In this document: in pieces, positions 8,412 through 46,984 of the stretch
Layout of the letters: each line of letters starts with the position of its first letter
Position numbering within the stretch: position 1 is the stretch's first letter
NCBI RefSeq assembly: GCF_016887565.1
Contig: NZ_CP069396.1
Coordinates: 2,135,001-2,199,000, forward strand
DNA: 64,000 nt
Origin: Archangium violaceum
GTDB taxonomy: Bacteria; Myxococcota; Myxococcia; Myxococcales; Myxococcaceae
Direction: 5' to 3'
Program-made: the position numbers and the translations under genes
The notes under the pieces: generated by a model
What the model saw: only the letters and a program-made list of their open reading frames with translations
The model's database searches: none
What the model was told of the DNA's origin: nothing

Positions 8412-8462
8412 CCTTGGTTCGGGACCAAGGGGTCGCAGGTTCAAATCCTGTCTCCCCGACCA
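8412..8462 (+). other. tRNA-Pro(CGG) 3'-half fragment, att-like site A
   Basis: The DNA reads as a complete anticodon arm (CTTGG, loop TTCGGGA, CCAAG; anticodon CGG), variable loop, T arm with TTCAAAT, 3' acceptor strand CTCCCCG, A and CCA. There is no acceptor 5' strand or D arm upstream, so it is not a functional gene. Fragments of this kind are left when integrative elements recombine into the 3' part of a tRNA gene. Confidence 0.85.
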
Positions 8463-8474
8463 TCTGAGAACCCA

Positions 8475-14225: not shown

Positions 14226-14385
14226 CTGGGCTGAGCCTGCCCCGGTTTTGTGGCTCTCCCACACTTCGCATTCGAGAGCCGCAAGTGCGGCAACTCGCTG
14301 GAACGGTTGGACTGCCCCGGCTCCAGAAATCCTGGTAATTACCATGGGTTGTGAACCGCTGGTGACCCTTGGACGGCCCTTCACA

Positions 14386-14435
<50 letters not shown>

Positions 14436-14437
14436 CA

Positions 14438-14482
14438 GAAGGGCGCGGAATCCTTGGAGAAATCCTCGGGTCCGCGCCCTTC
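14438..14482 (+). terminator. terminator-like hairpin after tRNA fragment B
   Basis: A perfect 12-bp stem GAAGGGCGCGGA / TCCGCGCCCTTC begins 3 bases after the CCA end and is followed by GTCTTTCC. Confidence 0.65.
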
Positions 14483-15896: not shown

Positions 15897-16060
15897 CTAC
15901 TCGGCCGGGGCCGGCTCGGACGCCGCGAAGTCGAGCCGATCGAGGCCCTTGCGCATGTCCTCCACGTCGAGGTGGCCGTACACCTCCGTGGTGATGGCCG
16001 GGTCGGAGTGGCGGAGGATGCACTGCACGGTGGCCAGCAGGACGCCCGCCTTGAGCAGCT
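15897..16060 (-). pseudogene. duplicated integrase C-terminal fragment
   Basis: The minus strand encodes LLKAGVLLATVQCILRHSDP then AITTEVYGHLDVEDMRKGLD and a stop, nearly identical in DNA and protein to the last 55 residues of the intact integrase at 17673. The catalytic His-x-x-Arg region is absent. It marks a second, mostly deleted copy of the same integrase family. Confidence 0.9.
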
Positions 16061-17672: not shown

Positions 17673-18857
17673 CTACTCGGCCGGGGTAGTCGGCTCGGGC
17701 GCCGTGAAGTCGAGCTGGTCGAGGCCCTTGCGCATGTCCTCCACGTCGAGGTGGCCGTACACCTCCGTGGTGATGGCCGGGTCGGAGTGGCGGAGGATGT
17801 GCTGCACGGTGGCAAGCGGGACGCCTGCCTTGAGCAGCAGGGTAGCCGTGGTGTGCCGCAGGTCGTGGAATCGCAGCGGGCGAGGGAGCGCCCGTGGCCA
17901 CAGCTTCATGCCGCAGTGGGGGCAGGGCTCGGGCACGCCGTGACTCCTCCTTGCCTTGTAGCCGCAGCCCTTGCGCCGACAGACGTGGTTGTAGCCCTCC
18001 ACCAGCCCCGCGCGCCCCAGGGCCCGGCGTAGCACCTTGTGCAGGGCCACGTCCGGCCGGTGCTGCGTGCCATCTTGCCGAGGGAATAGAAGCTCCGAGG
18101 GGGACGCGGCCATGGCCTCGCGCAGATATGGCACCAGGCCCACCGCGATGGGCAGCAGGTCCTCCCGGTTGCCCTTCGTAGTGTCGCTCCCGTGGGAGCG
18201 GCCCACCCGGATGGTGCCCGTCTTGAGGTCCACGTCCGACTTGCGCAGCGCCAGCAACTCGCCTTTGCGCATCCCGGTGTAGACGGCCGTGGCGAACAGG
18301 GGCCGCCAGCGGAGCTCCAGGGCCGCGAGCATCAGCGGGACCTCCTCGGCCTTGAGGTACTGCGGGAGCTTCTTCGGCTGTTTGATGCGCGGGACGGTCT
18401 TGGCGGGGTTGAGGCCGGTGAAGAGACCGCGCCGGATCGCCAGCTCGAAGATGCGGTGGACGTGAGCACGCAGGTGGTTGAGCGACTTGGGGGCCAGCTC
18501 ACCGGCCTTCGCGTTGAGCAGCGTTTCCAGCCGCGAGGGCGTAATGTCCTTGAGGGGTAGGGGGCCCAGCTCATCGCGCAGGTGCTTCTCCGCGAAGCCG
18601 ATGATGGTGGTGGAGCGGAGCCGACTGCCCACCTCGGTCTTCCAGACGTCCATGGCCTCCCCGAAGGTGACTTGCTTCCGGTGCTCGGGCATGGGCTCCA
18701 GGCCGCGCCGTTGCCGGTCGGATTGAACCTCCAGGTCATGGAGGAGGGACTTCGCCTCCGTCTTCGTGGTGGCCTGGGTGGCGGTGTCGCGCCACCGGCC
18801 GTGTCCGTCCTTGAATCGGACGTACCACTTGTCGTTCTTGCGGTAGATGGAACCCAT
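17673..18857 (-). CDS. tyrosine recombinase / integrase, 394 aa
   Basis: The N-terminal 60 residues (SIYRKNDKWYVRFKDGHGRW) form an arm-binding domain, residues 75-160 a core SAM-like domain, and residues 185-385 the catalytic domain. Visible catalytic residues are Arg in TGMRKGELLALR, HDLRHTTATLLL, HILRHSDPAI and the Tyr in TEVYGHLD. A zinc-ribbon-like insert (CRRKGCGYKARR ... CPHCGMKLW) interrupts the catalytic domain. AGGAGGT lies 5 bases before the ATG at 18857, ruling out longer starts. With the AlpA-like gene 48 bp upstream and the polymerase gene overlapping that, it forms an operon for element mobility. Confidence 0.96.
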   Translation of the reverse strand: MGSIYRKNDKWYVRFKDGHGRWRDTATQATTKTEAKSLLHDLEVQSDRQRRGLEPMPEHRKQVTFGEAMDVWKTEVGSRLRSTTIIGFAEKHLRDELGPLPLKDITPSRLETLLNAKAGELAPKSLNHLRAHVHRIFELAIRRGLFTGLNPAKTVPRIKQPKKLPQYLKAEEVPLMLAALELRWRPLFATAVYTGMRKGELLALRKSDVDLKTGTIRVGRSHGSDTTKGNREDLLPIAVGLVPYLREAMAASPSELLFPRQDGTQHRPDVALHKVLRRALGRAGLVEGYNHVCRRKGCGYKARRSHGVPEPCPHCGMKLWPRALPRPLRFHDLRHTTATLLLKAGVPLATVQHILRHSDPAITTEVYGHLDVEDMRKGLDQLDFTAPEPTTPAE

Positions 18858-18904
18858 TCGGACCTCCTCGTGATGATGAACCTCAGAGGTCTTATGACTT
18901 GGAC

Positions 18905-19120
18905 CTACCTGATTTTTGTGCCCTGGCCCCTGATGAAGGCGCGGATCGCTGCCGGCTCGAAGCGCAGCAGCCCGCCGATCTTCACGCACGGAAGCTGACC
19001 CGCCTGAGCCCGTTGGTACACCCACGAGCGCGAGGCTTTGAGGAAGCGAGCCACGTCATTCGCGTCCCAGAGGCCCTCCTCCTGCTCCAAGTTGTCCGTG
19101 TCCATGGTGGACCTACGCAT
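18905..19120 (-). CDS. AlpA/excisionase-type helix-turn-helix protein, 71 aa
   Basis: Residues 17-65 match the HTH_17/MerR-like excisionase fold (LWDANDVARFLKASRSWVYQ ... LPCVKIGGLLRFEPAAIRAF). Such proteins bind att DNA and steer integrase direction or regulate its transcription. AGGAGG lies 5 bases before the ATG at 19120. The start overlaps the last 8 bases of the polymerase gene, which suggests coupled translation. Confidence 0.9.
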   Translation of the reverse strand: MRRSTMDTDNLEQEEGLWDANDVARFLKASRSWVYQRAQAGQLPCVKIGGLLRFEPAAIRAFIRGQGTKIR

Positions 19121-20219
19121 CGGCGCCTCCTGCTTCAGATTCCACCGTGCCTACGCCAGCGCGCTTCTTGATGTCGCCGACCGTGGAGCGGGCCAGCTTC
19201 AGTTCCCTGGCCACCTCTCGAACACTCCTGCCGCCACTCAACAAGGTGAGGGCCTTCTCCATCTTGTGGGCCGGCACCCGTGACTTCCGCGGGCGCGCGC
19301 CTCCCTCTCGAATCTGCCGCTGACGCTCACCTGCCTCCAGTCGCGAGAGTGAGCGGTACGGGGCGGTGTCCGTGCTCTGCGTGAATGGTTTGCTGTCGCG
19401 GTCGAGCAACCGTCGCTTGTTGTCCCACGAGAAACCCGTGCGCACCTCCTCCTGTACCAGGGAGTGGATGGGCTTGCCCTCACGTACAGCCGCCTCCACC
19501 GTCAGCCTCCGTTTCCTGATGCGCGTCGGGGCCACGTCGCGCCCCTCGCGCAGGCAGGCCAGCAGCGTCTGGGCGAAGTCCGCCTCCGACTCGCTCGTCC
19601 CCTGACGGGCGACACGCACCACCGCCCAGGTGTCGTCCCGTCCCAGCACCGGCTCACCGGGGCCCACGTCCTCCACCCTCCGCAGCAGCGCGTACAAGCG
19701 AGCACGGGCGATGAAGACGGCATCAGCCCGATGCTCCAGGCGCATGCCGCTGCCAACGCTCTCCAGCGCATCGAGCCCTTCACAGCGCAGGTCCAACTCC
19801 TCGGGGCAGATGATGGCGTCGGTGGAGATGAGAAGGGCCCCACGCGCGGTGATGTCGGCCATGAGGGCGCGAGCCCGGCCCAGCACCAGCGTGGCCCACT
19901 CCGGGGCGAAGGCACTGCCTACATCCGGAGGCCCCTTGAGCGAGGCGCGCAACAACGGCGAGCCGTGGATGGCCGCTCCCAATCCCGGGCCGAAGCCGTG
20001 GAGCTGGGCCTCGCGCTCGACGTCCAGCAGGCCCGAACCGTGGATCCTCTCGGCCAGCTTGCCCAGCAGGGCGTTGGCGAAGAGCTTGGCCGTGGCGTAC
20101 TCCAGGGTGCCCCTCTTGGCGGCGGCCTTCTTCTCGAGGAAGTGCCGCATGTAGCGGCTCACGTCGTGGTCGCGCTCACGAGGGCCGGGCTTGAAGCCGT
20201 AGGCTTCCACCACCTTCAC
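19113..20219 (-). CDS. family-B DNA polymerase, C-terminal part (motifs B and C, thumb, HTH tail), 368 aa
   Basis: This frame is the in-frame continuation of the 20232-21398 gene after one TGA codon. It contains motif B as AKLFANALLGKL (KxxxNxxxGK) and motif C as LISTDAII, where the first Asp of DTD is Ser but the metal-binding second Asp is kept. A thumb-like region precedes a C-terminal helix-turn-helix (SGGRSVREVARELKLARSTV), which is not usual for PolB. If separately translated, a GTG at 20219 would serve as start; there is no clear ribosome site. Either the gene is broken or the stop is read through or re-initiated. Confidence 0.8.
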   Translation of the reverse strand: MKVVEAYGFKPGPRERDHDVSRYMRHFLEKKAAAKRGTLEYATAKLFANALLGKLAERIHGSGLLDVEREAQLHGFGPGLGAAIHGSPLLRASLKGPPDVGSAFAPEWATLVLGRARALMADITARGALLISTDAIICPEELDLRCEGLDALESVGSGMRLEHRADAVFIARARLYALLRRVEDVGPGEPVLGRDDTWAVVRVARQGTSESEADFAQTLLACLREGRDVAPTRIRKRRLTVEAAVREGKPIHSLVQEEVRTGFSWDNKRRLLDRDSKPFTQSTDTAPYRSLSRLEAGERQRQIREGGARPRKSRVPAHKMEKALTLLSGGRSVREVARELKLARSTVGDIKKRAGVGTVESEAGGADA

Positions 20220-20231
20220 CTTCGCTCCCCG

Positions 20232-21398
20232 TCATAGCGCCAGGCGCACCTCGGCCAGCGTGCAGGAGGAGGTTCCTTGAAGAGGAAAGACGAGTCGACG
20301 CACGCCATTGCGATGCACTGGCAGGCAGGGGTAGCGCGTGCCCCTCGGGAAGACGAACGTGAAGGTGCCGAAGCCCTCGTGCTCCTCGACCTGGGCGAGG
20401 GATTCCAGCCGGACCCACCGTGTCCCAGCGTGGGGGAGCGGCTGGAGCATCGCCGCGTAGGGATAGAGGGACACTGCGTCGTACTCGGCGAAGGCGCCGA
20501 CGTGGAAGCCGCGCCGGAACGCCTCCGACTGCGCACCCCAGTAGGCGCGGCAGGCCATGCGGCGCACGTTCGGGTCGCCGTTGAAGACCAGCTCGACACG
20601 CGGCTCATCCCGGTAGCCCGTGCCCTTCTTCACCTTGCGCACCACCTCGCGCTTCACCACCGGGGCGGGACCATTCCGGACGAAGTGCAGGCGGAAGATG
20701 GCGGACGCCACGGCCGGTAAGGTGCGGTTGCCGAGCACGTCGATGTTCCACTCGGCGAGCACCCCCTGGCGGAAGTCCCGCATGGCACGCAGGGCCACCT
20801 CCGCGTCCCGGGTGGCATGGGCCACCAGCCGCGCTAGATCCGTCCGCTTCAGCTCGGTCAGGTGCGGCCCATCTGCCTCCAGGCGGGGACTGCCCACGGT
20901 TCGAGCGATTTCCTCCAAGGGCGTCTTCGGGAAATAGCCCGCGAGATCCACCAGCCGCACGTCCCAGGTGCCCTCCTCGCGCTTCACGCGCTCCAGTCGC
21001 GCGTGGTGGGCCTTTCCCACCTGCTCCACCCGCGCCTCGGCCACGGCGGAAGGAAAGAGGGCGAGGAGACTGCTGGCCTCGTGTGCCACCACATGCACCT
21101 GCCGGATTCCGCGCCGGGCGGGCGGCATGGCATCGGCCCGCCGGAGCAGTTCCCGGATGCAGTCGATGAGCTGCTCGCCCATGAGCTGTCCCTCGGGCAG
21201 CTCGTAGGCTTGGGCGTGGACGTGCTCGTCCGCGAGGGTGACGAGCTGCAACAGCAGCGGGACGCGATGCTCCTCGTCCCACTTCACGCTCACGCCCACC
21301 AGCACGGTGTGCGGATACGCTCGGGGCCGACGACGGAGGGGAGAGAGTGTCCGGGACAGGAGCAGCCCCAGGTGCGTCTCCAAGTCCTTCTCGTTCAT
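20232..21398 (-). CDS. family-B DNA polymerase, N-terminal part (exonuclease-like domain and motif A), 388 aa
   Basis: Residues 30-210 resemble a diverged 3'-5' exonuclease domain; an Exo III-like HATRDAEVALRAM is visible, with Asp198, while Exo I and II residues are unclear. AYWGAQSEAFRRG near 285 matches the YxGGxxEaFxxG element that precedes the palm, and AEYDAVSLYPYAAM at 304-317 is motif A (DxxSLYP). The reading stops at TGA after VRLAL, but the same frame resumes with RGAKVKVVEAYGF, exactly where PolB sequences continue. The ATG at 21398 follows a GGGGGTGG stretch; 33 upstream codons look non-coding. It is likely an element-borne replicative polymerase of viral/plasmid type. Confidence 0.85.
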   Translation of the reverse strand: MNEKDLETHLGLLLSRTLSPLRRRPRAYPHTVLVGVSVKWDEEHRVPLLLQLVTLADEHVHAQAYELPEGQLMGEQLIDCIRELLRRADAMPPARRGIRQVHVVAHEASSLLALFPSAVAEARVEQVGKAHHARLERVKREEGTWDVRLVDLAGYFPKTPLEEIARTVGSPRLEADGPHLTELKRTDLARLVAHATRDAEVALRAMRDFRQGVLAEWNIDVLGNRTLPAVASAIFRLHFVRNGPAPVVKREVVRKVKKGTGYRDEPRVELVFNGDPNVRRMACRAYWGAQSEAFRRGFHVGAFAEYDAVSLYPYAAMLQPLPHAGTRWVRLESLAQVEEHEGFGTFTFVFPRGTRYPCLPVHRNGVRRLVFPLQGTSSCTLAEVRLAL

Positions 21399-21546
21399 GC
21401 GCCACCCCCGAGCAATTCCAGGGACTTGGCGCGGCAGGAGACTGGCGCGTTTCGCCAGATGGCGGACTGGAACCGTCCACCCCCTCGGAGCTTGCAAGCC
21501 CTCGAAATTACGACGTCGAGGGGCTCAACAGAGTGTCCGGAACCGT

Positions 21547-21581
21547 GATGAGGGGGCGGACAACACGCCTGCCCCCTCATC
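21547..21581. terminator. hairpin in the PolB upstream region
   Basis: An 11-bp stem GATGAGGGGGC / GCCCCCTCATC with a 13-nt loop lies between the 21853-22581 gene and the polymerase gene. It could terminate the upstream gene or act as an origin or operator structure. Confidence 0.45.
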
Positions 21582-21790
21582 GTGATCCCTTGGATGAGGG
21601 TGATGTTCTTGGAGTTCCCGGTGACTTTCGACCGTCGCATCTTGCCGCCTCGTGCGCAGGGCGCCTGTCCTGGGCGTCCGGCTCTGAGTGGCAATGTCGA
21701 GATGCTTTGGTCGAAGAAAAATCCTAGAGGTCTCGTGGGGTTGTGGGGCGATTGGTCTCTACTAGAGAGGGAAGGGGTCGTTACCCTGCA

Positions 21791-21850
21791 CCATCTCTAC
21801 CCCCTGGAGACGGGAGGGCTCACTACCCCCCATCATCTCCACCCCCTGGA
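21791..21850. repeat. two 18-bp direct repeats
   Basis: CCATCTCTACCCCCTGGA (21791) and TCATCTCCACCCCCTGGA (21833) are spaced 42 bp centre to centre and end just at the stop codon of the 21853 gene. Two copies are too few to call iterons, but they lie next to a replication-type gene. The remaining 450 bp between the two genes show nothing else. Confidence 0.4.
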
Positions 21851-21852
21851 AC

Positions 21853-22581
21853 TCATGCCTGCAAGTCCCCGAATGGGGATTGCGGTGGCGGAAGGGGCGG
21901 CTCCTCTGGTGACGGGTCGGTTGGCGCCGTGGGTGGGGGGCTCTGGCCTGTGAGCTGTCTCAACGCCGCCAGGAGCTCCTTGGAGTTTTGGCGCGCGTTG
22001 GCCCACTTCCACACCCGCTGGGTGGTTTCCACTTTGTCCGAGGTGGGGTCCTCATAGCCGATGAGGATGGCGAGCGCGGCGATCTCCCTGTGCGCCAACT
22101 CGATGCCGAGTATCTCCGCCGTGAAGTCCGCGAAGGCGGCCATCATCCTCTTCTCCGCACCCGCTCCTTCGAGCAGGACACGTAGAGCTGGCTTCTGTTT
22201 CACTTCTTCGAGCAGGGGTCCGATACGTCGTTGGAGAGCGAGAAGGAAGGTGGCCACTCGTTCCAGTTGGCGCAGAGGCTGGAGGCTCTCGACGAGCACG
22301 GGCGGCAGCAAGCCGCGCGTGACCTGGATGTATCGCCCCACCCAACTGCTCCTGGCGTTCTGGAAGAGCGACTGCTTGCGCTGGCTGAGCACGTCGTTCT
22401 TCTTGCCGAGCCATCCCAGCAGGTTCCGCAGGGGCTCGGACGCATTGGAGATCTTGAGTCCCATCTCCATGCTCGCTGCAAGCGCGTCAACATGCGGGCG
22501 GATGCGTTCCTGCTCTACTTCAAGGTAGGCGAAAACCGAGGCATTCGAGGCGAGATGCGCGATGAAGCGTGGCTGGTTCAT
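21853..22581 (-). CDS. hypothetical helical protein, 242 aa
   Basis: The protein is almost all helical, with no signal peptide. The C-terminal 30 residues are Pro/Glu-rich (SPPPTAPTDPSPEEPPLPPP). I do not recognise a family. The ATG at 22581 is chosen over a TTG 12 codons upstream. It is divergent from the 22661 gene, with about 80 bp between starts that must hold both promoters, and lies upstream of the polymerase gene on the same strand. Confidence 0.7.
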   Translation of the reverse strand: MNQPRFIAHLASNASVFAYLEVEQERIRPHVDALAASMEMGLKISNASEPLRNLLGWLGKKNDVLSQRKQSLFQNARSSWVGRYIQVTRGLLPPVLVESLQPLRQLERVATFLLALQRRIGPLLEEVKQKPALRVLLEGAGAEKRMMAAFADFTAEILGIELAHREIAALAILIGYEDPTSDKVETTQRVWKWANARQNSKELLAALRQLTGQSPPPTAPTDPSPEEPPLPPPQSPFGDLQA

Positions 22582-22660
22582 GGCCGAGAAGCTCGTCACG
22601 CCTGGTCCCCCCGCCAAGAAGCAGTTCCCACAGGTGTAGAGGCTCCTTCACAATTCGAGC

Positions 22661-23527
22661 ATGAAGACCGTCAGAACCGCCGTGCAGGCTGCGCAGGCCG
22701 CGATCAATGGGGTTCGCTCGAAGGGCCCGAAGACGCCTGAAGGGAAGGTTGCCTCCTCACTCAATGCCCTCCGGCACGGTTTGAGTGCCAAGCAGCTACT
22801 ACTGCCCGGGGAAGATGCCGACGAGTACGAGCGCCATCTCGATGGGTACTTCGTCACCTTCGCGCCAGCTACCCTGCCCGAGGCCGTCATCGTGGCGCAG
22901 ATCGGGGATACAGCCTGGAAGCTGGAACGGCTGAGCAAGCTGGAGAGCGGACGGACCCTCGCCAGCCTGGAAGATGCTCTGGAGAAGACGCTTGAGTTCG
23001 AGAGGTTCGCCCTTACTCGCCGCGCACTTCGGGCCGTGAACGCCCTCGTGGAGATCGCGGACGCCTGCCCGGTGCCGCAGGATGCGGCGCAGACCGACGC
23101 CCTGCTGGCCGCCGTGGATGGAACCATGAAGATCGTCCACGAGGTGCCGGAGCTGCCGATGATGGTGAGCCGGTCCCTCGCCTTCTCGCTCGGTCATGCC
23201 CGGGACACCTCCAAGGATGGACGCATGCTGCCGGACGCCTACCGTGCCCTGGGAGATGCCGCCAAGGTGCTGAAGGGGGCCCTCTCCGCGAAGCTGGCCG
23301 AGGACGAGGGGGCGCTGGCTCCGGTACGCGAGCGGCTGGCCGCCGAGGTGCTGCTGCTGGACGACGCGGACCTGCGGAAGCTGGAGCGCCACCGCAAGCT
23401 GCTGGAGACCGCGATGCAACGGCAGCTCGGGCTTCTCGACCAGCTCCGCGTCCAGGTGGCCGCCGTGAAGACCCAGAACCCGGCTGAGTCCAAGGAGCTG
23501 CGCGTGCGCCTGCGTCTCGTGAAGTGA
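22661..23527 (+). CDS. hypothetical protein with SKGPKTPEGK motif, 288 aa
   Basis: Residues 12-45 read AAINGVRSKGPKTPEGKVAS then SLNALRHGLSAK, a motif seen at the N-terminus of many bacterial proteins of unknown role (ANGAKSxGPxTxEGKxRSSxNAxxHGL). The remainder is a long helical region rich in Ala, Leu and Glu. No catalytic residues are recognised. Such genes are frequent in mobile regions. The ribosome site is weak. Confidence 0.78.
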   Translation: MKTVRTAVQAAQAAINGVRSKGPKTPEGKVASSLNALRHGLSAKQLLLPGEDADEYERHLDGYFVTFAPATLPEAVIVAQIGDTAWKLERLSKLESGRTLASLEDALEKTLEFERFALTRRALRAVNALVEIADACPVPQDAAQTDALLAAVDGTMKIVHEVPELPMMVSRSLAFSLGHARDTSKDGRMLPDAYRALGDAAKVLKGALSAKLAEDEGALAPVRERLAAEVLLLDDADLRKLERHRKLLETAMQRQLGLLDQLRVQVAAVKTQNPAESKELRVRLRLVK

Positions 23528-24645: not shown

Positions 24646-26145
24646 TCAGCCCTCGGCGGGCTGAGCGAGTTGGTTGGGCAGGGGGAGCGCTTCCCCGCGC
24701 AGGGCCGCCAGCGCGGCCTCTCGCAGGTAGCGCTTGGGGTCCACCCCGCATAGCTTCGCCGTCTCCATCAGGCTGTAGTAGAGGGCCGCCACCTCGGTGC
24801 CGCGCCGGCTCCGGCTGCCGTAGTGGTTCTTGCGGCCCACCGCCAGCCCGCGCATGGCACGCTCGGTGGCTCCATTGTCCAGCGGCACCCGCGGGTCCGT
24901 CAGAAACCGTGTCAGCCCCGTCCACCGGTTGCTCATGTATTTGATTGCCTGGCCCAGCGCCGACTGGGGCAGGACGCGCTGCTCGCACGCCCACTGGTGC
25001 AGCCGCTCGATAATGGGACGGCTCTTCTGCTGTCGCAGTTCCAGCAGGCGCGCCAGGTTCTCGGGCCCCTGCTTATACTCGCGCTCCACCGCGTACAGCT
25101 CGGCAATCATGTCCAGGGCTTCGTTCGCCTGGGGGAAGGCTTCCGCGCACTCGACGAATTTGCGCCGCGCGTGCATCCAGCAGTTCACCAGAGATATGCC
25201 CGCGCTCTTGCCCGCCACGCTCTCGTATGTGCTCAGCCCATCCGTCATGAGGACTCCACGGAAGTCCTTGAGCATGTTGCGCGCGGCCTCCACGTCCCGG
25301 CCCTCCTGTATCCGGTACACCACGGCGTCAGGAGCGCACAGTGCCCAGGCGTACCAGCGCGTCTGACTCTTGCTGCCCAGCAGCGGCCAGCGCGTCTCGT
25401 CTCCCCCCAGAATCTCCCGCGTCAGCAGCGCCTGGTGCAGCGCCTCGTGCGCGGGCGACAGCAGCCGCGCCAGCGCGTCTATCTGGTCCCAAAGCGTCTG
25501 GCTGTCCACCGCCAGCCCCTCGCGCTGCATGGTTCTCACCTGCCGCTCCAGCGGCATGTGGTCGAGGTACTTGGCCACGGCCACTTCCACGGCGAAGTCC
25601 ACCGAGTAGCGCCCGCCGGGCTGAAGCTTGGGCGGGCCCAGGGCCGTCTCCACGCATCCGCCGCACCCGCAGCGGTACTTCTGTCGCTTGTGGCGGCGCA
25701 GCACGAAGCGCCGCTCCACCACGTCCACCTCCTCGGCCTCCTCGTAGCAACCCTTCATTTCCGTCAGCGCCCCGCCGCACTCGGGACACTGCTTGTCTGG
25801 CTCCTCCAGCGTGTGCACTTCCTCCAGCAGTGGCAGTGTGGGCTGGGTGCGCGGGCCGTGGCCGCGCGCGGGCTCGGCCGGCCCGGCCTGTTTCCCCTCG
25901 TCCTGCTCGCCGCGGGGGCGCTTCTCGCTGGAGCGGCCAAACAGCTCGCCGGTGCGCTGCGCGAGCTGCCGCTCCAACTCCTGCAAGCGCAACTGCAATT
26001 CCTCGGCGTCCTGGCCCCGCGCGCTCATCAGCTTGCGCGTGAGCTCCACCACGCGCGCCACCAGGCGCTTGTTCTCCGCCTCCAGCAACAGGGCCGCCTG
26101 GCGCAGCCTCTCCACGTCCTTCTCCGTCGTAAGCTGGAAGCTCAT
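24646..26145 (-). CDS. tnpC: IS66 transposase TnpC (DDE), 499 aa
   Basis: An N-terminal coiled coil (residues 8-80) and a helix region precede a zinc-binding motif with CPECGG at about 120-125 and a second CGCGGC at 160-165. The catalytic domain follows, with ILGGDETRW (first Asp), LMTDGLSTYE (second Asp) and the C-terminal PLDNGATERAMRGLAVGRKN and HYGSRSRRGTEVAALYYSL. Length is normal for the family. It cuts and joins the IS ends together with TnpA and TnpB. Confidence 0.97.
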   Translation of the reverse strand: MSFQLTTEKDVERLRQAALLLEAENKRLVARVVELTRKLMSARGQDAEELQLRLQELERQLAQRTGELFGRSSEKRPRGEQDEGKQAGPAEPARGHGPRTQPTLPLLEEVHTLEEPDKQCPECGGALTEMKGCYEEAEEVDVVERRFVLRRHKRQKYRCGCGGCVETALGPPKLQPGGRYSVDFAVEVAVAKYLDHMPLERQVRTMQREGLAVDSQTLWDQIDALARLLSPAHEALHQALLTREILGGDETRWPLLGSKSQTRWYAWALCAPDAVVYRIQEGRDVEAARNMLKDFRGVLMTDGLSTYESVAGKSAGISLVNCWMHARRKFVECAEAFPQANEALDMIAELYAVEREYKQGPENLARLLELRQQKSRPIIERLHQWACEQRVLPQSALGQAIKYMSNRWTGLTRFLTDPRVPLDNGATERAMRGLAVGRKNHYGSRSRRGTEVAALYYSLMETAKLCGVDPKRYLREAALAALRGEALPLPNQLAQPAEG

Positions 26146-34031: not shown

Positions 34032-35228
34032 ATGCCTATCGACCTCACGGTCTTCGCTACCCCAGTTCTCCGCGGGCAACGCTTCGACCACAACCCCGAT
34101 CCGAACAATGTAACCATCCCGGTGGACGTCCTCCCGATGCTTGAGGAGTACCGGATGGTCATCCTTGAGACCGCTCGTGCGCTCTACCATCAGCGCACGG
34201 GCGCCCGGGTCCCTGCGGGCTTCGACGACAGCTTCGCTTTGCGGCTGGGGAGGGTTGAACCAGGCAGCACCATTCCGACCCTGCTTCGCACGGTGGCTTT
34301 ATCGGCGGCGCTGATTCAGAACTATCCGGCAGTTATGGGTCCTGACGGGCGGGACATCTTCGAGGAGGCCCGCGAGGTTGTAGGGCAGACGATTTCCGCC
34401 ATATCTCAACGGCAGCAACTCCCGAGGGCCTTCCCGCGCAAGCACCTGAACAAACTGCGTCACATGAGTGAGCACCTTGAGGAGGGTGAGTCGCTCGAAC
34501 TGCGCACGCCGGGGGCACCAGCAGGGCCCAGGACCACCCGTGCACTCAAGGACGTAATTCGGGACATTGAGATCCAGCAAACATCTCGCGTTGTCTCGTT
34601 CGTTGGGCAAGTGACGGGCATGGACACTGTGTCCCGCTCGTTCACTGTTCGGACGCGGGACGGTGTGAACATTGATGCGACCTATGGCGAGGGGGTGGGG
34701 AGCGAGCAGGAGGTTGTCAACCTGCTGCGTGGCCGGCACTACATGCGTGCCGAGGTTGAGGTCGATGCGACGTTCGATGTTGATGGTAAGCTGAAGGACG
34801 TGTCACGCCTTCTCAGTTTCATGGCCGTGACCGTGGTAGCCGAGGCAACTGTGAAGCAGCTCGAGGACAGATTTGAGGTACTCGGGACTGTCGAGTCCGG
34901 TTGGCTCGATGGCAAGGGCGCTGCCGTGTCGGCGGAGCGGTTGCCATGGACGAAGGACCTGTTCCTCGAATTGATGGTGGAGGACGGCATCCCGAAGCCG
35001 CGTCTCTATCCGACACCAACTGGTGACATTGAGGCCGAGTGGTCCCATGGAGGCTGGGAGGTCGTCGCTACCATTGTGCTGATGGCGCGTACTGCCAGCG
35101 TCACTGTCGTGCACGCCGAACTTGACGACGAGGACGAGGGCGACTTCAACCTCAACACTGACGAAGGTCGGACTGACTTCGCCGCCTTCCTCAGGAAGTA
35201 CTTGAACCCCACCGAGGAGGAGCGCTGA
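34032..35228 (+). CDS. hypothetical protein of a two-gene cassette, first gene, 398 aa
   Basis: No recognised domain. The N-terminal half is mixed helical. Residues 185-300 look beta-rich (TSRVVSFVGQVTGMDTVSRS; FTVRTRDGVNIDATYGEGVG), like an OB- or barrel-type fold, and the C-terminal 110 residues end in an acidic tail. Third-position G/C is lower than in flanking genes, suggesting transfer. Its TGA overlaps the next start (TGATG), so the two proteins are probably made together and may interact. Function unknown. Confidence 0.78.
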   Translation: MPIDLTVFATPVLRGQRFDHNPDPNNVTIPVDVLPMLEEYRMVILETARALYHQRTGARVPAGFDDSFALRLGRVEPGSTIPTLLRTVALSAALIQNYPAVMGPDGRDIFEEAREVVGQTISAISQRQQLPRAFPRKHLNKLRHMSEHLEEGESLELRTPGAPAGPRTTRALKDVIRDIEIQQTSRVVSFVGQVTGMDTVSRSFTVRTRDGVNIDATYGEGVGSEQEVVNLLRGRHYMRAEVEVDATFDVDGKLKDVSRLLSFMAVTVVAEATVKQLEDRFEVLGTVESGWLDGKGAAVSAERLPWTKDLFLELMVEDGIPKPRLYPTPTGDIEAEWSHGGWEVVATIVLMARTASVTVVHAELDDEDEGDFNLNTDEGRTDFAAFLRKYLNPTEEER

Positions 35229-35755
35229 TGGCCAACCTCATTCCTCCTCCTCTCCCCGAGAACGATGACGTGACGCTTTACCGCCACGTCCACCCGAAGT
35301 GGCTCGACAATGGGGAGCCGTCGAGCATGGCCTTCCGCCCCTTCGACGAATCCAACATCCACCTGTCGGTAGACCTCTCGACGAAGACGTCCGCAGAGGC
35401 CGCTCACAAGAACTTCAAGGGCGAGTCGGTCGGCGTCTTCGGCGTCACCCCGGCAGAGTGTAGCGCCGAAGAGCTCAAGACGTACTGGGCCCCAGAAGCG
35501 GGGAACGACGCTCACGGCGCCATTGACTACACCGAGACAGGTCTCGGCAAGGCCGCCAAGAAGAAGAGCAGTAGACTCGCCGCCAAGGCTCGTGCGCGCC
35601 GCAGGTTGTACCCGCCTCCAGACGACCTGCCTACCACTGCGACAGATGAGGGTGCCACGGCCACCGTGCAGCCTTCCGCCGAGGCGACACCGACCGGTGA
35701 CATGCCTCCTCCCACGGCTGAGCAACCGCGCCGCGGTGACGAACCCAGCACGTAG
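35228..35755 (+). CDS. hypothetical protein of a two-gene cassette, second gene, 175 aa
   Basis: Residues 15-100 contain VTLYRHVHPKWLDNGEPSSM then AFRPFDESNIHLSVDL and ESVGVFGVTPAECSAEEL. From memory this belongs to a widespread uncharacterised family with an LYRxxHPxxxxxGxxSSxAFxP pattern that often follows a larger unknown protein. The C-terminal 70 residues are basic, then Pro/Thr-rich and probably disordered. No catalytic motif is evident. Confidence 0.76.
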   Translation: MANLIPPPLPENDDVTLYRHVHPKWLDNGEPSSMAFRPFDESNIHLSVDLSTKTSAEAAHKNFKGESVGVFGVTPAECSAEELKTYWAPEAGNDAHGAIDYTETGLGKAAKKKSSRLAAKARARRRLYPPPDDLPTTATDEGATATVQPSAEATPTGDMPPPTAEQPRRGDEPST

Positions 35756-41597: not shown

Positions 41598-41637
41598 CCT
41601 TGGTTCGGGACCAAGGGGTCGCAGGTTCAAATCCTGT
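41598..41637 (+). other. tRNA-Pro(CGG) 3'-half fragment, att-like site C
   Basis: The anticodon arm through the T stem (CCTTGGTTCGGGACCAAGG ... TTCAAATCCTGT) is identical to site A. The acceptor 3' strand and CCA are replaced by GAAGACGCACC, so identity ends at the T stem. It marks the right junction with ordinary chromosome. Confidence 0.82.
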
Positions 41638-41713: not shown

Positions 41714-44700
41714 TCAGTGGAGCGGAAGTTCCAGCGTGGACACGGCCCCCCGACCCGGTCCATCGCTGTCGATACTGAGGCGGCCATTCAGGAGTTGTGC
41801 CGCCAGCGCGCTGGAGTGCAGTCCGAAGCCATGGCCGTCCTTGCGCGTGGTGAAGCCGTGGGAGAACAGCTTCCCCTTCACCTCGGGGGTGATTCCCACG
41901 CCATCATCCACCACCTGGATGCGTGCCACCGGCCCGTCCGCCCTCAGCTTCACCCACAGGTTGCGCGAGCCCTCGGACTTCGCTTCCAGCGCGTGCCTGG
42001 CGTTGCTGATGATGTTGATGAGGATCTGCAGCACCTTGTGCTTGTCCACCTTCACCCGCGGCACCACCTCCAGCTCCCGGTGCACGGTGACGCCGTGGCG
42101 CTGTGATGCCCCCATCTGGATGCGCAGGGCGTCGTCGATGAGCTGGGCCAGCTCGCACTCCTCCGTCATCAGCGAGCTCCGCGCATACGTCTGTTGCACC
42201 TGGATGATGGCGCGGATGTGCTCGACGTGCCGGCTCATCACCTCCATGTCCTCCACCAGGCGCATCTGATCGTTCCCCAACTCCTCCCCCAGCGCCGTCA
42301 GGTAGTCCGGCAGATGTCTGCCCCGGACGTTCGTCGTCAGGAACTCCGCCAGGTTCTCCCGCTGCTCCACGAGGAGCGCCGCCGCCTGTCTCAGACGGCC
42401 CACGCGCAGCGAGCCCACCGCCTTGCGCATCACCTCGAGGTTGACGACGGCGCTGGTGAGCACATTGCCCACGTTGTGCAGCACGTTGGAGGCCACCTCC
42501 GTCATGCCCACTTCTCGCGCCGTATCCACCAGCCGGGTCTGGGCCTGCTCGAGCTCGCGCGTGCGCTCCTCCACCCGCTGCTCCAACTCTTCATTCGCCT
42601 GGCGCAGCTCCGCCCTGGCGCGCTGGACGTCCTCATAGAGCCGGGCGTTCTCGATGGAGATGGCCGCCTGGGAGGCCAGGTGCTCCAGCAGCGTCAGTCG
42701 CGCCGGGCTGAAGGCATCCGCCGCCAGGTCGTTCTCCAGGTACAGCACTCCGGAGAACCGCTCCTGCCTCAACAGGGGCAGGCACAACACCGACCGCGCT
42801 CCGCCGCGCGCCAGGTACGCATCGGAGAAGAAGGGGTGCGGCTTGGAGGCATCGCCGATGAGCACGTGCTCCCGCGTGCGCCGCACATAGGAGAGGAGCG
42901 TCCAGGGCAACTCGGGGGTCACCCCCTCCGACGGAGCATCGGAGATGGCCGCCACCGACAGGGTGTCCCCCTCGGGAAGCAACAGCGCGCCTTTCTGGGC
43001 TCCGGCGTTCTCAATCGCCGCGTGCAGCAGCGTGGTCACCAGGCGATCCAGGACGATTTCACTGGAGACGGCCTGCTGGACCTTGACGACCGTGAGCGCG
43101 TCGATGTGGCTGGAGGCCGTACCGCTGGTGGTCAGTTCGTCCCGGGTGTCCGAGGTGGACGAGAGGTGGGGCCACTGGGACTCCAGGTGCTGGACCTTGC
43201 CCAGGGCGCCCCACCGCAGGTACGCCGCCCGCGCTTCGCGCGCGAAGCCCTGGGCAACGAGCGGGGCCTGACGCGTGCGCCAGAAGTTCGCCGCGAGCTC
43301 GGCGGCCAATCCCACATGGTGGGTGGCCCCATTCTCCCGAGCCGAGCGGATGGCTTCCTCATAGGCGCGTATCGCCTCATCCAGTCGCCCCTGGAGGCGG
43401 GCCAGCTCCGCGGCCACCATCCGCTCCAGCGCGTGGAAGTTCTCGGGGCAATTCTCCGCCCACTCCGCCAGCTGCCGCTGGTGACGCTGGATGGCCTCGA
43501 GGAACTGGCGCTGCTCCTCCGCGGTGGCGCCCTCGAAGCACGCGGCCAGGGCCAGGGCGCGGTAGAGGTTGAATTCGCGGAAGAAGAGGATGCCATTGTT
43601 GGCCTTCAGGAGCTCGGCCGCCTTGTCCGCCGCCCGGCGGGCTTCCGCGTAGTCGCCACACATGAATCGCGACTGGAGCCGGGTGACCCAGAAGGCGCGC
43701 GTGCTCCTCCTGGGGACTGGCGGCAGTCGGGCCTCGAAGGCCCGCTCATCGAAGCCTTCCCCATCGAGCGTGCCGAACGAGGGGGAGCATCCGCGCATCT
43801 GCTGCACGTAGCGCCGCGCCAGGAGGAGCGACTCCTGGGGATCCAGGAAGCCCGTCTTGCTCAAGAACTCGCCGCGGACGAGCGACTCCTGGTGGACCTC
43901 CTCCAGGTCGTGTCCCATGGCCAGGCGGTTCAGGACGAGCTCGAGGCCGCAGTAGGCGGCGGTGGCCGTGCTCCCCACTTGAAGCGCGTGTTGGAAGCCG
44001 CTGACGACGAGCTCCTGCGCCTGGGGGAGAGGCTGGCTCCAATAGCTGCTGAACTGCATGCTGAGGAGGACATCGCCCCGGTTGGCGGACAGGTCGTACC
44101 GCTCGACGAGCTCGCGGGCGACCCTCGTGAAGGCAAGGCCTTCCCGGTACCGCTTGAAGAACGAGCCGGTGATGACGCCAAACCAGCTGAGTCCGGGCAC
44201 CGCGGCGGCCACGAAGCCGTGACGCAGGGAGAGGGAGACCATCCGGCTCAAGAGGACGATGAGCAGGGGAGGGTGGGTGGAGTACGCGGAATTGAAGAGC
44301 TTGAAGAGGGCACCGATGACCAGCTTCATGTCCGGATCGGCCAGGAGTGGCAGGTCGATGAGGCTCTCGATGGAACGCTCCCCCAGCAAGGCCCAGACCT
44401 CCTCATGGGCGGCCGCCGCCTCCTCCCAGGTGGGGTGCCGCGAGAGCGGCATGCCCAGCAACACCAGGCATTCCAACATGCAGGTGACGCCCTCCTCGCG
44501 CTCACCCGCGGCGAAGTGGACGTCATGCTTCAGGCCGTAGACGGCCTCGATGTCCGAACGGGAGCTCACCCGGGGGAGGAGCTTCCCGACCAGGCGGCGC
44601 GCCTCGGCGATGTTGCCGCTCATGAGCTCACAGCGCGCCAGGGTGAATTGCAGCTTGAAGGCCAGCGCGTGGTCCGTCTCCCAGGGGTCTCCTGGAATGA

Positions 44701-46984
44701 GCGAGAAGGCCGTCGTGAAGTAGGAGATGGCGGGGCGGAGCGCGAGCGCGGCCTTGGCCTTGTCACCCGCCTCGGTGTTCAGCCGCGCGAGGTGGTGGCG
44801 CTCGGCGGCGTCCTCCATGAGCCCGGCCCCGGCGTTGAGCTGGTTCACCACGTCGAAGAGCGACTCGCGAAGTTCCTCCTGGGACAGGCTCTCGAGCAGC
44901 AAACGGCCGATACGCAGGTGAACGGCCTCGAGCTCCGACTGGGAGCAGAGGCTATGGGCCGCCTGCTGGATGCGGTCGTGCAGGAACCGGTAATGCGCCG
45001 GGCCGGAACGCACCAGCATGCCCTCCAGGAGCGCGGGCTCGAGCCCCTGTTCCACATCTCCCCTCTCGCCGAGGTTGGCGAGGACGTCCAGCATCTGGAG
45101 TGAGAAGACCTTGCCCACGCACGCCGCCAGGCGCAGCAGGTGCTGCGTGCCAGCGGGGAACTGGCGCAGCTTGCCCACCATGAAGTCGACGATGTTCTCC
45201 GAGTAGTCGCGCGTCCGCACCGCCTCGGCATCCCACTGCCAGCCGCCTCCGGGCCCTCGCACCAGCAGGCCATCCTGGTGGAGCGCCACCAGCAATTGCA
45301 GCAGGAAGAAGGGGTTGCCCCCCGTCTTCCCGTGCACCAGCGCCGAGAGGGGAGCGACCACCTCCCGTGTCGCTCCCGGCAGCGTGTCGGCCACCAGTTG
45401 CTCCACCTGCGCCACGCTCAGCGGCTCCACGCGGAGCTCCTTCAGCTTCCCCCCCGCCTGACGCACCCCCTCCAACATCTGCATGAGCGGGTGCGCGGAG
45501 CTCATCTCATTGTCCCGGTAGGCGCCCAGCCACAACATCGGTGGGATCTCCTTCTCGGAGAGCAGATGGGAGAGCATCTGGAGGCTGGCGGGGTCCGCCC
45601 ACTGCAGGTCATCCAGGAACAGCACCATGGGATGCGCCGGGGTGGCGAACACCCCGTAGAACTGGCGGATCGCCCAGAAGAAGCGGCGCTGGGCCTCCTC
45701 TCCAGGGGGCATCGCCGGGAGCGCGGGCTGTGGGCCCACCAGCACTTCCAGCTGGGGCACCTGGTCCACGAGCAGCTGGCCGTAGTTTCCCCAGGCTTGG
45801 TTCACCTGCTGGCGCCACAGGGAGATCTCCTCCTCGCTCCTCGCGAGCGCCTGCTGCACCAGCGCCCGGAGGGTCTGGGCCAGGATGTCGTAGGGGATGT
45901 CCCGCTGGAACTGGTCGAACTTGCCGCTCAGGAAGAAGCCACGGCGCTCCACCACGGCCTTGTGCAGCTCATGCACCACCGAGGACTTGCCGATGCCCGA
46001 GTACCCGGTGACGAGGACCAGCTCCGGCGTGCCCGTGCGTCTCACCCGCTCGAAGCCCTCCAGCAGGGTGGACACCTGGGCCTCACGCCCGTAGAGCCGT
46101 TGCGGCAATTGGAACCGGATGGGTGTGTCCCGCGTGCCCAGCGCGAACACCTCTCGCACGTCCGGGCCCGATGCGTCGCGGCACCGCTCCAGGTCCGCCC
46201 GCAGTCCCTCGGCGCTCTGGTAGCGCTCCTCCGCCGTCTTCGCCAGCAGCTTGAGGACGACGGCGGACAAGGCCGGGGGCACCCGCGGGTTCAGCTCGTG
46301 CGGAGGCCTGGGCGCCTGCGCCATATGGACGTGAAACCACTCGAGCGCATCCCGTCCCTGGAAGGGCCGCCGTCCCGTCAACAACTCGTAGAACATGACG
46401 CCCAGCGAGTAGAAGTCCGTGCGGTAGTCCACCGCCCGGTTCATCCGCCCCGTCTGTTCCGGCGACATGTACGCCAGCGTCCCCTCGACCAGGTGCGTCG
46501 GAGCCGCGTCCAGGTACTCCACCTTCTGCAGCGTGGCCACGCCGAAGTCGATGAGTCGCGCCTCTCCCGAGGGCTCCAGGATGATGTTGGAGGGTTTGAT
46601 GTCCTTGTGGATGACGTCGCGACAGTGGACCTCCCCCAGGGTGGCGACCAGGGAGAGGGCCAGGTTCAAGAACCGGGAGGGCTCCAGGGGCTGGCCCGTG
46701 GACTCGGACAGGGGCTGACCCTGCACCCGCTCGAGCAGCAGCACGGGCCGCTCGCTGATCCATTCACAGGCATACGGCCTCGCCACGCCCCGCACGTCGC
46801 GCAGCCGTTGCAGGATTCCAAACTCCCGCCGGTACCGCTCGCTCTCCGCACGACCCGGAGATGCCATCACGGGCGTCTTGATGATGACCGGCAGGCCGTC
46901 GGCCTCACGAACCGCGTGGAACAGCGCGTTCGAGCCCGTGCCCCGAATGAGGCCAACAACCCTGTACCCTGAAATATCGAGCAT
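41714..46984 (-). CDS. trifunctional Ser/Thr kinase / AAA ATPase / sensor histidine kinase, 1756 aa
   Basis: The protein begins with a Hanks kinase (residues 1-270; IIKTP lysine, HKDIKPSN, IDFGVA). A large AAA_16 ATPase follows (Walker A GYSGIGKSSV, Walker B LFLDDLQWADPASL), then a long helical-repeat region (about 640-1290) and a GAF domain (about 1320-1470). A coiled coil (QANEELEQRVEERTRELEQA) leads to a histidine kinase with His box EVASNVLHNVGNVLTS, N box ILINIISNARHALE, G1 VVDDGVGI and G2 GHGFGLHSSA. All key residues of the kinase and HK parts are present. The ATG at 46984 is preferred over a GTG 4 codons upstream. Likely a cytoplasmic signal integrator; the input is unknown. Confidence 0.95.
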   Translation of the reverse strand: MLDISGYRVVGLIRGTGSNALFHAVREADGLPVIIKTPVMASPGRAESERYRREFGILQRLRDVRGVARPYACEWISERPVLLLERVQGQPLSESTGQPLEPSRFLNLALSLVATLGEVHCRDVIHKDIKPSNIILEPSGEARLIDFGVATLQKVEYLDAAPTHLVEGTLAYMSPEQTGRMNRAVDYRTDFYSLGVMFYELLTGRRPFQGRDALEWFHVHMAQAPRPPHELNPRVPPALSAVVLKLLAKTAEERYQSAEGLRADLERCRDASGPDVREVFALGTRDTPIRFQLPQRLYGREAQVSTLLEGFERVRRTGTPELVLVTGYSGIGKSSVVHELHKAVVERRGFFLSGKFDQFQRDIPYDILAQTLRALVQQALARSEEEISLWRQQVNQAWGNYGQLLVDQVPQLEVLVGPQPALPAMPPGEEAQRRFFWAIRQFYGVFATPAHPMVLFLDDLQWADPASLQMLSHLLSEKEIPPMLWLGAYRDNEMSSAHPLMQMLEGVRQAGGKLKELRVEPLSVAQVEQLVADTLPGATREVVAPLSALVHGKTGGNPFFLLQLLVALHQDGLLVRGPGGGWQWDAEAVRTRDYSENIVDFMVGKLRQFPAGTQHLLRLAACVGKVFSLQMLDVLANLGERGDVEQGLEPALLEGMLVRSGPAHYRFLHDRIQQAAHSLCSQSELEAVHLRIGRLLLESLSQEELRESLFDVVNQLNAGAGLMEDAAERHHLARLNTEAGDKAKAALALRPAISYFTTAFSLIPGDPWETDHALAFKLQFTLARCELMSGNIAEARRLVGKLLPRVSSRSDIEAVYGLKHDVHFAAGEREEGVTCMLECLVLLGMPLSRHPTWEEAAAAHEEVWALLGERSIESLIDLPLLADPDMKLVIGALFKLFNSAYSTHPPLLIVLLSRMVSLSLRHGFVAAAVPGLSWFGVITGSFFKRYREGLAFTRVARELVERYDLSANRGDVLLSMQFSSYWSQPLPQAQELVVSGFQHALQVGSTATAAYCGLELVLNRLAMGHDLEEVHQESLVRGEFLSKTGFLDPQESLLLARRYVQQMRGCSPSFGTLDGEGFDERAFEARLPPVPRRSTRAFWVTRLQSRFMCGDYAEARRAADKAAELLKANNGILFFREFNLYRALALAACFEGATAEEQRQFLEAIQRHQRQLAEWAENCPENFHALERMVAAELARLQGRLDEAIRAYEEAIRSARENGATHHVGLAAELAANFWRTRQAPLVAQGFAREARAAYLRWGALGKVQHLESQWPHLSSTSDTRDELTTSGTASSHIDALTVVKVQQAVSSEIVLDRLVTTLLHAAIENAGAQKGALLLPEGDTLSVAAISDAPSEGVTPELPWTLLSYVRRTREHVLIGDASKPHPFFSDAYLARGGARSVLCLPLLRQERFSGVLYLENDLAADAFSPARLTLLEHLASQAAISIENARLYEDVQRARAELRQANEELEQRVEERTRELEQAQTRLVDTAREVGMTEVASNVLHNVGNVLTSAVVNLEVMRKAVGSLRVGRLRQAAALLVEQRENLAEFLTTNVRGRHLPDYLTALGEELGNDQMRLVEDMEVMSRHVEHIRAIIQVQQTYARSSLMTEECELAQLIDDALRIQMGASQRHGVTVHRELEVVPRVKVDKHKVLQILINIISNARHALEAKSEGSRNLWVKLRADGPVARIQVVDDGVGITPEVKGKLFSHGFTTRKDGHGFGLHSSALAAQLLNGRLSIDSDGPGRGAVSTLELPLH

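Follow-up and report, generated by a model that had tools for sequence, protein, structure and literature searches.

The subject of this account is a 64-kb stretch of the genome of Archangium violaceum, a soil myxobacterium, referred to here as the window. It encodes a family-B DNA polymerase (PolB), an AlpA-type helix-turn-helix (HTH) protein and a tyrosine integrase, all on the minus strand. These genes most probably belong to a pipolin-like integrative element that brings its own PolB and is present here as a decayed copy. As far as the sequence tells, it would work like a pipolin; it is called pipolin-like rather than pipolin because its PolB falls outside the sampled group of pipolin polymerases (piPolBs).

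Organization of the integrase-AlpA-PolB module

The three genes follow one another head to tail in the order PolB, AlpA-type protein, integrase, with an overlap of 8 nt between the first two and a gap of 47 nt before the third. This arrangement had been proposed in a preliminary description of the locus and is supported by Pfam and PHROG matches (aa, amino acids):

17673..18857, minus strand: tyrosine integrase, 394 aa (PF00589, E 2.5e-25; PHROG integrase, 2e-65)
18905..19120, minus strand: AlpA/excisionase-type HTH protein (HTH_17), 71 aa (PF12728, 6e-10; PHROG 66 excisionase, 1.2e-8)
19113..21398, minus strand: PolB reading frame, 761 codons, interrupted by TGA (PF03175, 6e-13 with the joined frame)
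20232..20234, minus strand: in-frame TGA in PolB, CGA (Arg) in the relatives G063 and G061
20460..20483, minus strand: PolB motif A, YDAVSLYP
20058..20087, minus strand: PolB motif B, KLFANALLGK
19815..19826, minus strand: PolB motif C, STDA, without the first Asp of DTD, like piPolBs (TTDG)

The integrase has its catalytic set (R, HxLRH and Y) and carries a CxxC...CxxC insert. The start of its open reading frame (ORF), formerly given as 19025, is very likely the ATG at 18857 (MGSIYRKNDKWY...). The AlpA-type HTH protein is likely to serve as a directionality factor and/or regulator. PolB consists of a degenerate exonuclease domain, palm/fingers and, as previously recognized, a C-terminal HTH (PF02796). 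The joined protein matches PF03175 and has palm motifs A, B and C; it had been treated as one protein, but it is not one ORF, since the reading crosses the TGA at 20234-20232. Besides the module itself, the span 17673-22581 first assigned to it covers a distinct 254-aa ORF (22617-21853).

Affinity of PolB with pipolin polymerases

A maximum-likelihood tree was built from seven full-length Myxococcota PolBs, seven piPolBs, 12 pPolBs and two rPolBs. In this tree the Myxococcota PolBs (support 100/100) are sister to the piPolBs (99/97), with a joint support of 100/98, and a clade of Myxococcota PolBs with pPolBs was rejected by the approximately unbiased (AU) test (p 0.016). Profile comparison gave an E-value of 9.2e-37 over 609 columns against piPolB and of 4.6e-8 over 408 columns against pPolB. 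Motif C reads STDA in all seven Myxococcota PolBs, TTDG in six of the seven piPolBs and VTDG in the piPolB of Fusobacterium, while it is mostly DTDS in pPolBs; the second catalytic Asp is retained in the Myxococcota proteins. These also display [KR]xR in place of KxY, the same as piPolBs, and have DxKR in common with them.

The AlphaFold model of PolB (pLDDT 70, pTM 0.66) matched best the phi29 polymerase (Z 16.9, 491 residues, 4.6 A). A search of viral structures returned many PolBs but no information other than the fold, and a sequence search of the PDB gave chance-level matches only. PF03175 matches in two further genomes (G039 and G124) were set aside as DNA polymerase II-like rPolBs with DTDS, which are not members of the clade.

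The exonuclease-like region noticed earlier is present as a fold. In the window PolB, however, SVK stands in place of the ExoI DxE residues, and exonuclease activity is therefore not expected in its lineage. Among the seven full-length PolBs, these residues read DTE in G152 and DLE in G069; the remaining five PolBs, which group together as a clade (support 100/98), have lost them. This is consistent with a single loss.

Relatives across Myxococcota

PolB matches were obtained in 10 of the 195 Myxococcota genomes searched, and nine of them hold a substantial PolB. These are, in the family of the window, the window genome itself (G000), G063, G061, G099 (M. xanthus AM003), G084 and G069 (Hyalangium versicolor) and, in another family of the order, G153, G149 and G152, one of which is an Anaeromyxobacter metagenome-assembled genome. 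The tenth genome (G062) contains short PolB remnants only, and the same is true of second loci in G000 and G069; the remnant in the window's genome (L016, 9652-10380) covers the C-terminal part and is 45-49% identical.

An integrase lies directly beside PolB in all nine genomes. It was identified by Pfam Phage_integrase (PF00589) in the window, G099, G153, G149 and G152, and by sequence similarity in G063, G061, G084 and G069. In G069, PolB and the AlpA-type HTH are fused, the HTH following the C-terminus of PolB. Together with the alignment of the joined frame to PolB, its phi29-like predicted fold and the att-like repeats of five relatives besides the window (see below), this linkage supports the earlier proposal that the element is integrative and encodes a family-B polymerase of its own.

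Between the window genome and G063, which belongs to another genus, the module shares 97.8% identity, more than rpoB (95.6%) or the tRNA flank (83-90%); recent horizontal transfer is therefore favoured. The five further genomes of the genus all keep the tRNA-Pro flank, and some have related integrase remnants near the tRNA; no PolB relative was found in any of them. A scan of genome contigs and a tblastn search of phages, both with the first PolB half as query, yielded nothing, and a viral contig scan (query A2) gave no relative.

Integration sites and leader RNA

The island that bears PolB is bounded by attachment (att) repeats derived from a tRNA gene:

14385..14439, plus strand: att site formed by the tRNA-Pro(CGG) 3' end, bounding the PolB-bearing island on the integrase side
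41599..41637, plus strand: distal att copy, its core cut short after CCTGT
8413..8467, plus strand: further att copy, boundary of two neighbouring tandem islands

The tRNA fragments of the preliminary description proved to be these three tRNA-Pro(CGG) 3' halves, at 8413, 14385 and 41599. The intact gene is located at genome positions 2129941-2130017, 5 kb left of the window, and the combination of three 3' fragments with an intact gene points to a tandem island array. Across 13.2 Mb, the 3'-half pattern has five occurrences, of which this 47-kb cluster accounts for four; the reversed control has none. The att site at 14385..14439 is followed by TCAGAAGGGCGCGGAATCCTTGGA, nearly as found 3' of intact tRNA-Pro in L011, L012 and L014. 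ARAGORN, and Rfam at gathering thresholds, detected no tRNA in the window because only tRNA 3' halves are present there. The PolB module lies within the 14385-41637 segment, a 27-kb island.

Bounding direct repeats were found in G063, G061, G084, G069 and G153. They correspond to the tRNA-Pro 3' end in the first three. In G069 (8.7-kb element) the repeat is 25 bp of the 3' end of transfer-messenger RNA (tmRNA), an assignment based on partial Rfam matches under the gathering score. In G153 (9.4-kb element) it is a 30-bp repeat of the RNase P RNA 3' end (L035, 7997 and 17440). The integrase of G149 adjoins rnpB (L036, 6561-6992), and no second repeat was seen on this short contig; that of G099 adjoins tRNA-Pro(GGG), with the contig ending before any distal repeat. 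Neither an RNA gene nor a repeat was found in G152. To our knowledge, RNase P RNA, the apparent site in two members, is unusual as an integration site.

Anaeromyxobacter-type members carry an Rfam int-alpA-like RNA just upstream of the operon: in G153 (L035, 13058-13127) it scores 34.8 bits, where the gathering score is 35.8, and in G152 (L028, 324-392), with a weaker 24.3 bits, it is also under the gathering score. The leader in G149 (L036) looks similar to this RNA by eye only. A match at L036 6666-6738 was taken as spurious, as it overlaps rnpB, and no int-alpA RNA was detected in the window module.

In working copies, the tyrosine integrase would insert the element at the 3' end of a gene for a structural RNA (tRNA-Pro in the window), with att direct repeats as the trace of this event. 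Excision and operon control are probably directed by the AlpA-type HTH protein. The excised circle would then be replicated by the element's own PolB, perhaps with no need of a primer to start. Four points are proposed by analogy with pipolins: excision, formation of the circle, its replication and primer independence.

Interruption of PolB in the window

The PolBs of G063 and G061 are 99% and 97% identical in protein to that of the window, respectively, and both are open throughout. Since these two near-identical relatives read CGA and stay open, the simplest reading of the TGA in the window is a recent nonsense mutation, CGA to TGA. Recoding of TGA was ruled out, as the relatives have CGA at the same codon. 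In the window genome the integrase and the AlpA-type protein look intact while PolB is knocked out. Elsewhere, PolB is interrupted by TAG in G099 and by TAA in G069, and an interruption is also found in G084. Among close copies the ratio of nonsynonymous to synonymous substitution rates (dN/dS) is 0.13-0.27, which indicates that PolB has been selected as a protein (purifying selection).

Alternative explanations

The locus could also be an ordinary genomic island with a PolB that works in host repair or damage tolerance and not in replication of the element. The frequent decay of PolB while islands stay would suit this explanation, and so would the still unclear biological role of piPolB, for which a putative role in host damage tolerance has been cited (PMC9710591). 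It is nevertheless considered unlikely, as the integrase, and mostly the excisionase too, lies directly beside PolB in nine genomes of two families, and PolB overlaps or is fused with AlpA, as expected of a replication and mobility module of the element. A terminal-protein-primed PolB of the phi29/tectivirus type, with a linear protein-capped stage and the upstream ORF as terminal protein, is improbable. PF03175 covers pPolBs too, the best solved fold is the phi29 polymerase and an ORF is indeed present upstream of PolB; against this stand the result of the AU test, the replacement of motif C and KxY as in piPolBs, and a tyrosine integrase with att repeats, which fit a circle.

Two other explanations concern the TGA. 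It could split PolB into two functional subunits that assemble, the second being translated from the GTG at 20219. This codon lies 12 nt after the stop and behind a GGGGAG that has no counterpart in the relatives (window TGACGGGGAGCG, CGACGGGGGGCG in G063/G061), and coding bias is kept in both halves. Functional subunits are nonetheless very unlikely, given that the two closest relatives are unsplit, that other copies have unrelated interruptions and that the break lies within the polymerase domain, after motif A and before motif B; moreover, the divergence between the window and G063 is too small to separate a fresh pseudogene from a kept gene. It is likewise very unlikely that the TGA is an assembly or base-calling error in an intact copy: a single C to T difference separates the window from two near-identical intact copies, but the assembly is a single contig, the change is a substitution rather than an indel, and independent stops occur in other clade members.

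Several observations weigh against a pipolin-like element as the explanation of the locus. Neither an excised circle nor a replication origin nor any enzyme activity has been observed. The Myxococcota PolB clade has a long branch outside the sampled piPolB crown, which is represented by seven reference piPolBs only, and the exonuclease residues kept by piPolBs are missing in the window PolB. The Myxococcaceae copies are mostly broken (TGA, TAG, TAA, insertion, fragments), so that activity in nature may be rare. Finally, the window island measures 27 kb against 8.7-13.8 kb in the relatives and has an IS66 copy inside; its large size and this copy suggest that it may be composite.

Comparison with known elements

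The combination of genes had been presented as an unrecognized one. However, a row of genes for an integrase, an HTH_17 protein, a small ORF and PolB is found in E. coli pipolins, and the window has the same trio of integrase, HTH_17 protein and PolB, with a PolB that is sister to piPolBs. Pipolins and the window element share the same deep PolB clade, a motif C without the first Asp, a tyrosine integrase, an HTH_17 protein, att repeats of a tRNA gene and variable cargo. Published pipolins likewise have tyrosine recombinases and tRNA-located att repeats (PMC7385651, PMC9710591); the ExplorePipolin criterion for them is a piPolB profile match with E below 1e-50 (PMC9710591).

Unlike pipolins, the Myxococcota elements have a PolB with a Pfam-detectable C-terminal HTH, none being detected in E. 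coli piPolB. Their PolBs stand apart from the sampled piPolBs, one subclade being devoid of the exonuclease residues, and their integrase adjoins the RNA gene, downstream of PolB. The targets also differ: tRNA-Pro, tmRNA and rnpB in the Myxococcota elements against tRNA-Leu in pipolins. As in the window, an integrase is found near a piPolB-type polymerase (TTDG, KTRG/RTRG) on a Pseudosulfitobacter plasmid and in WB5_2B_004 (Proteobacteria), where the integrase adjoins a tRNA; in contrast to the window PolB, both polymerases fall inside the piPolB group. On the Pseudosulfitobacter plasmid (L041, 1806-7350), the integrase is accompanied by a polymerase that is split by an IS66 element, with annotation as hypothetical proteins.

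The phi29-type pPolBs have the overall fold and motifs A and B in common with the window PolB, but differ by their DTDS motif C, KxY, terminal protein, linear genomes and lack of integrase. Casposons are likewise integrative elements with their own PolB. They use Cas1 and terminal inverted repeats, whereas the window element has a tyrosine integrase and RNA-gene att repeats. No Cas1 was detected among the island genes scanned, which covered part of the ORFs.

Pipolin-like elements are hereby extended to a Myxococcota PolB clade, sister to the sampled piPolBs. Pipolins are reported in Proteobacteria, and no report of such elements in Myxococcota was found in a literature search of partial coverage; older works class myxobacteria as Proteobacteria. 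Tentatively, and with less confidence than for the window element itself, the Myxococcota elements may form a deep PolB-driven integrative lineage sister to pipolins, here restricted to Myxococcota, with an HTH-tailed polymerase and possibly a second self-priming group. The AlpA fusion found once, the partial loss of proofreading residues and the tRNA, tmRNA and RNase P RNA targets would be features of this lineage. The clade can serve to test which features accompany primer-independent synthesis (the missing Asp of motif C, [KR]xR, the need for an exonuclease), and its members with and without exonuclease residues permit a direct test of whether proofreading matters.

Neighbouring genes and cargo

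Further features of the island are the following:

21853..22617, minus strand: 254-aa ORF 5' of PolB, weakly similar (E 0.006) to the ORF at the same place in G153/G149
22661..23527, plus strand: 288-aa ORF, also beside the PolB module in G061, G153 and G152
24646..26145, minus strand: IS66-family transposase inserted in the island (PF03050, 1.8e-76)
34032..35755, plus strand: cargo, candidate defence pair PDC-M32A/PDC-M32B (PADLOC, 4.6e-63 and 1.7e-26)

The 254-aa ORF had no match in Pfam, PHROG or NCBIfam, which leaves a terminal protein among its possible identities. The cargo of the relatives includes dCTPase and DndB-like genes in G084, and PAAR-like and DUF2169 genes in G061 and G069. 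A C-terminal integrase fragment (window 15897-16059), which lies between the att site and the intact integrase, is probably the remnant of an earlier integration. Directly after the last att copy, a large gene of GAF/histidine-kinase type occupies positions 41714-44902, and the 5-kb region that holds it recurs many times in the genus with about 70-94% identity.

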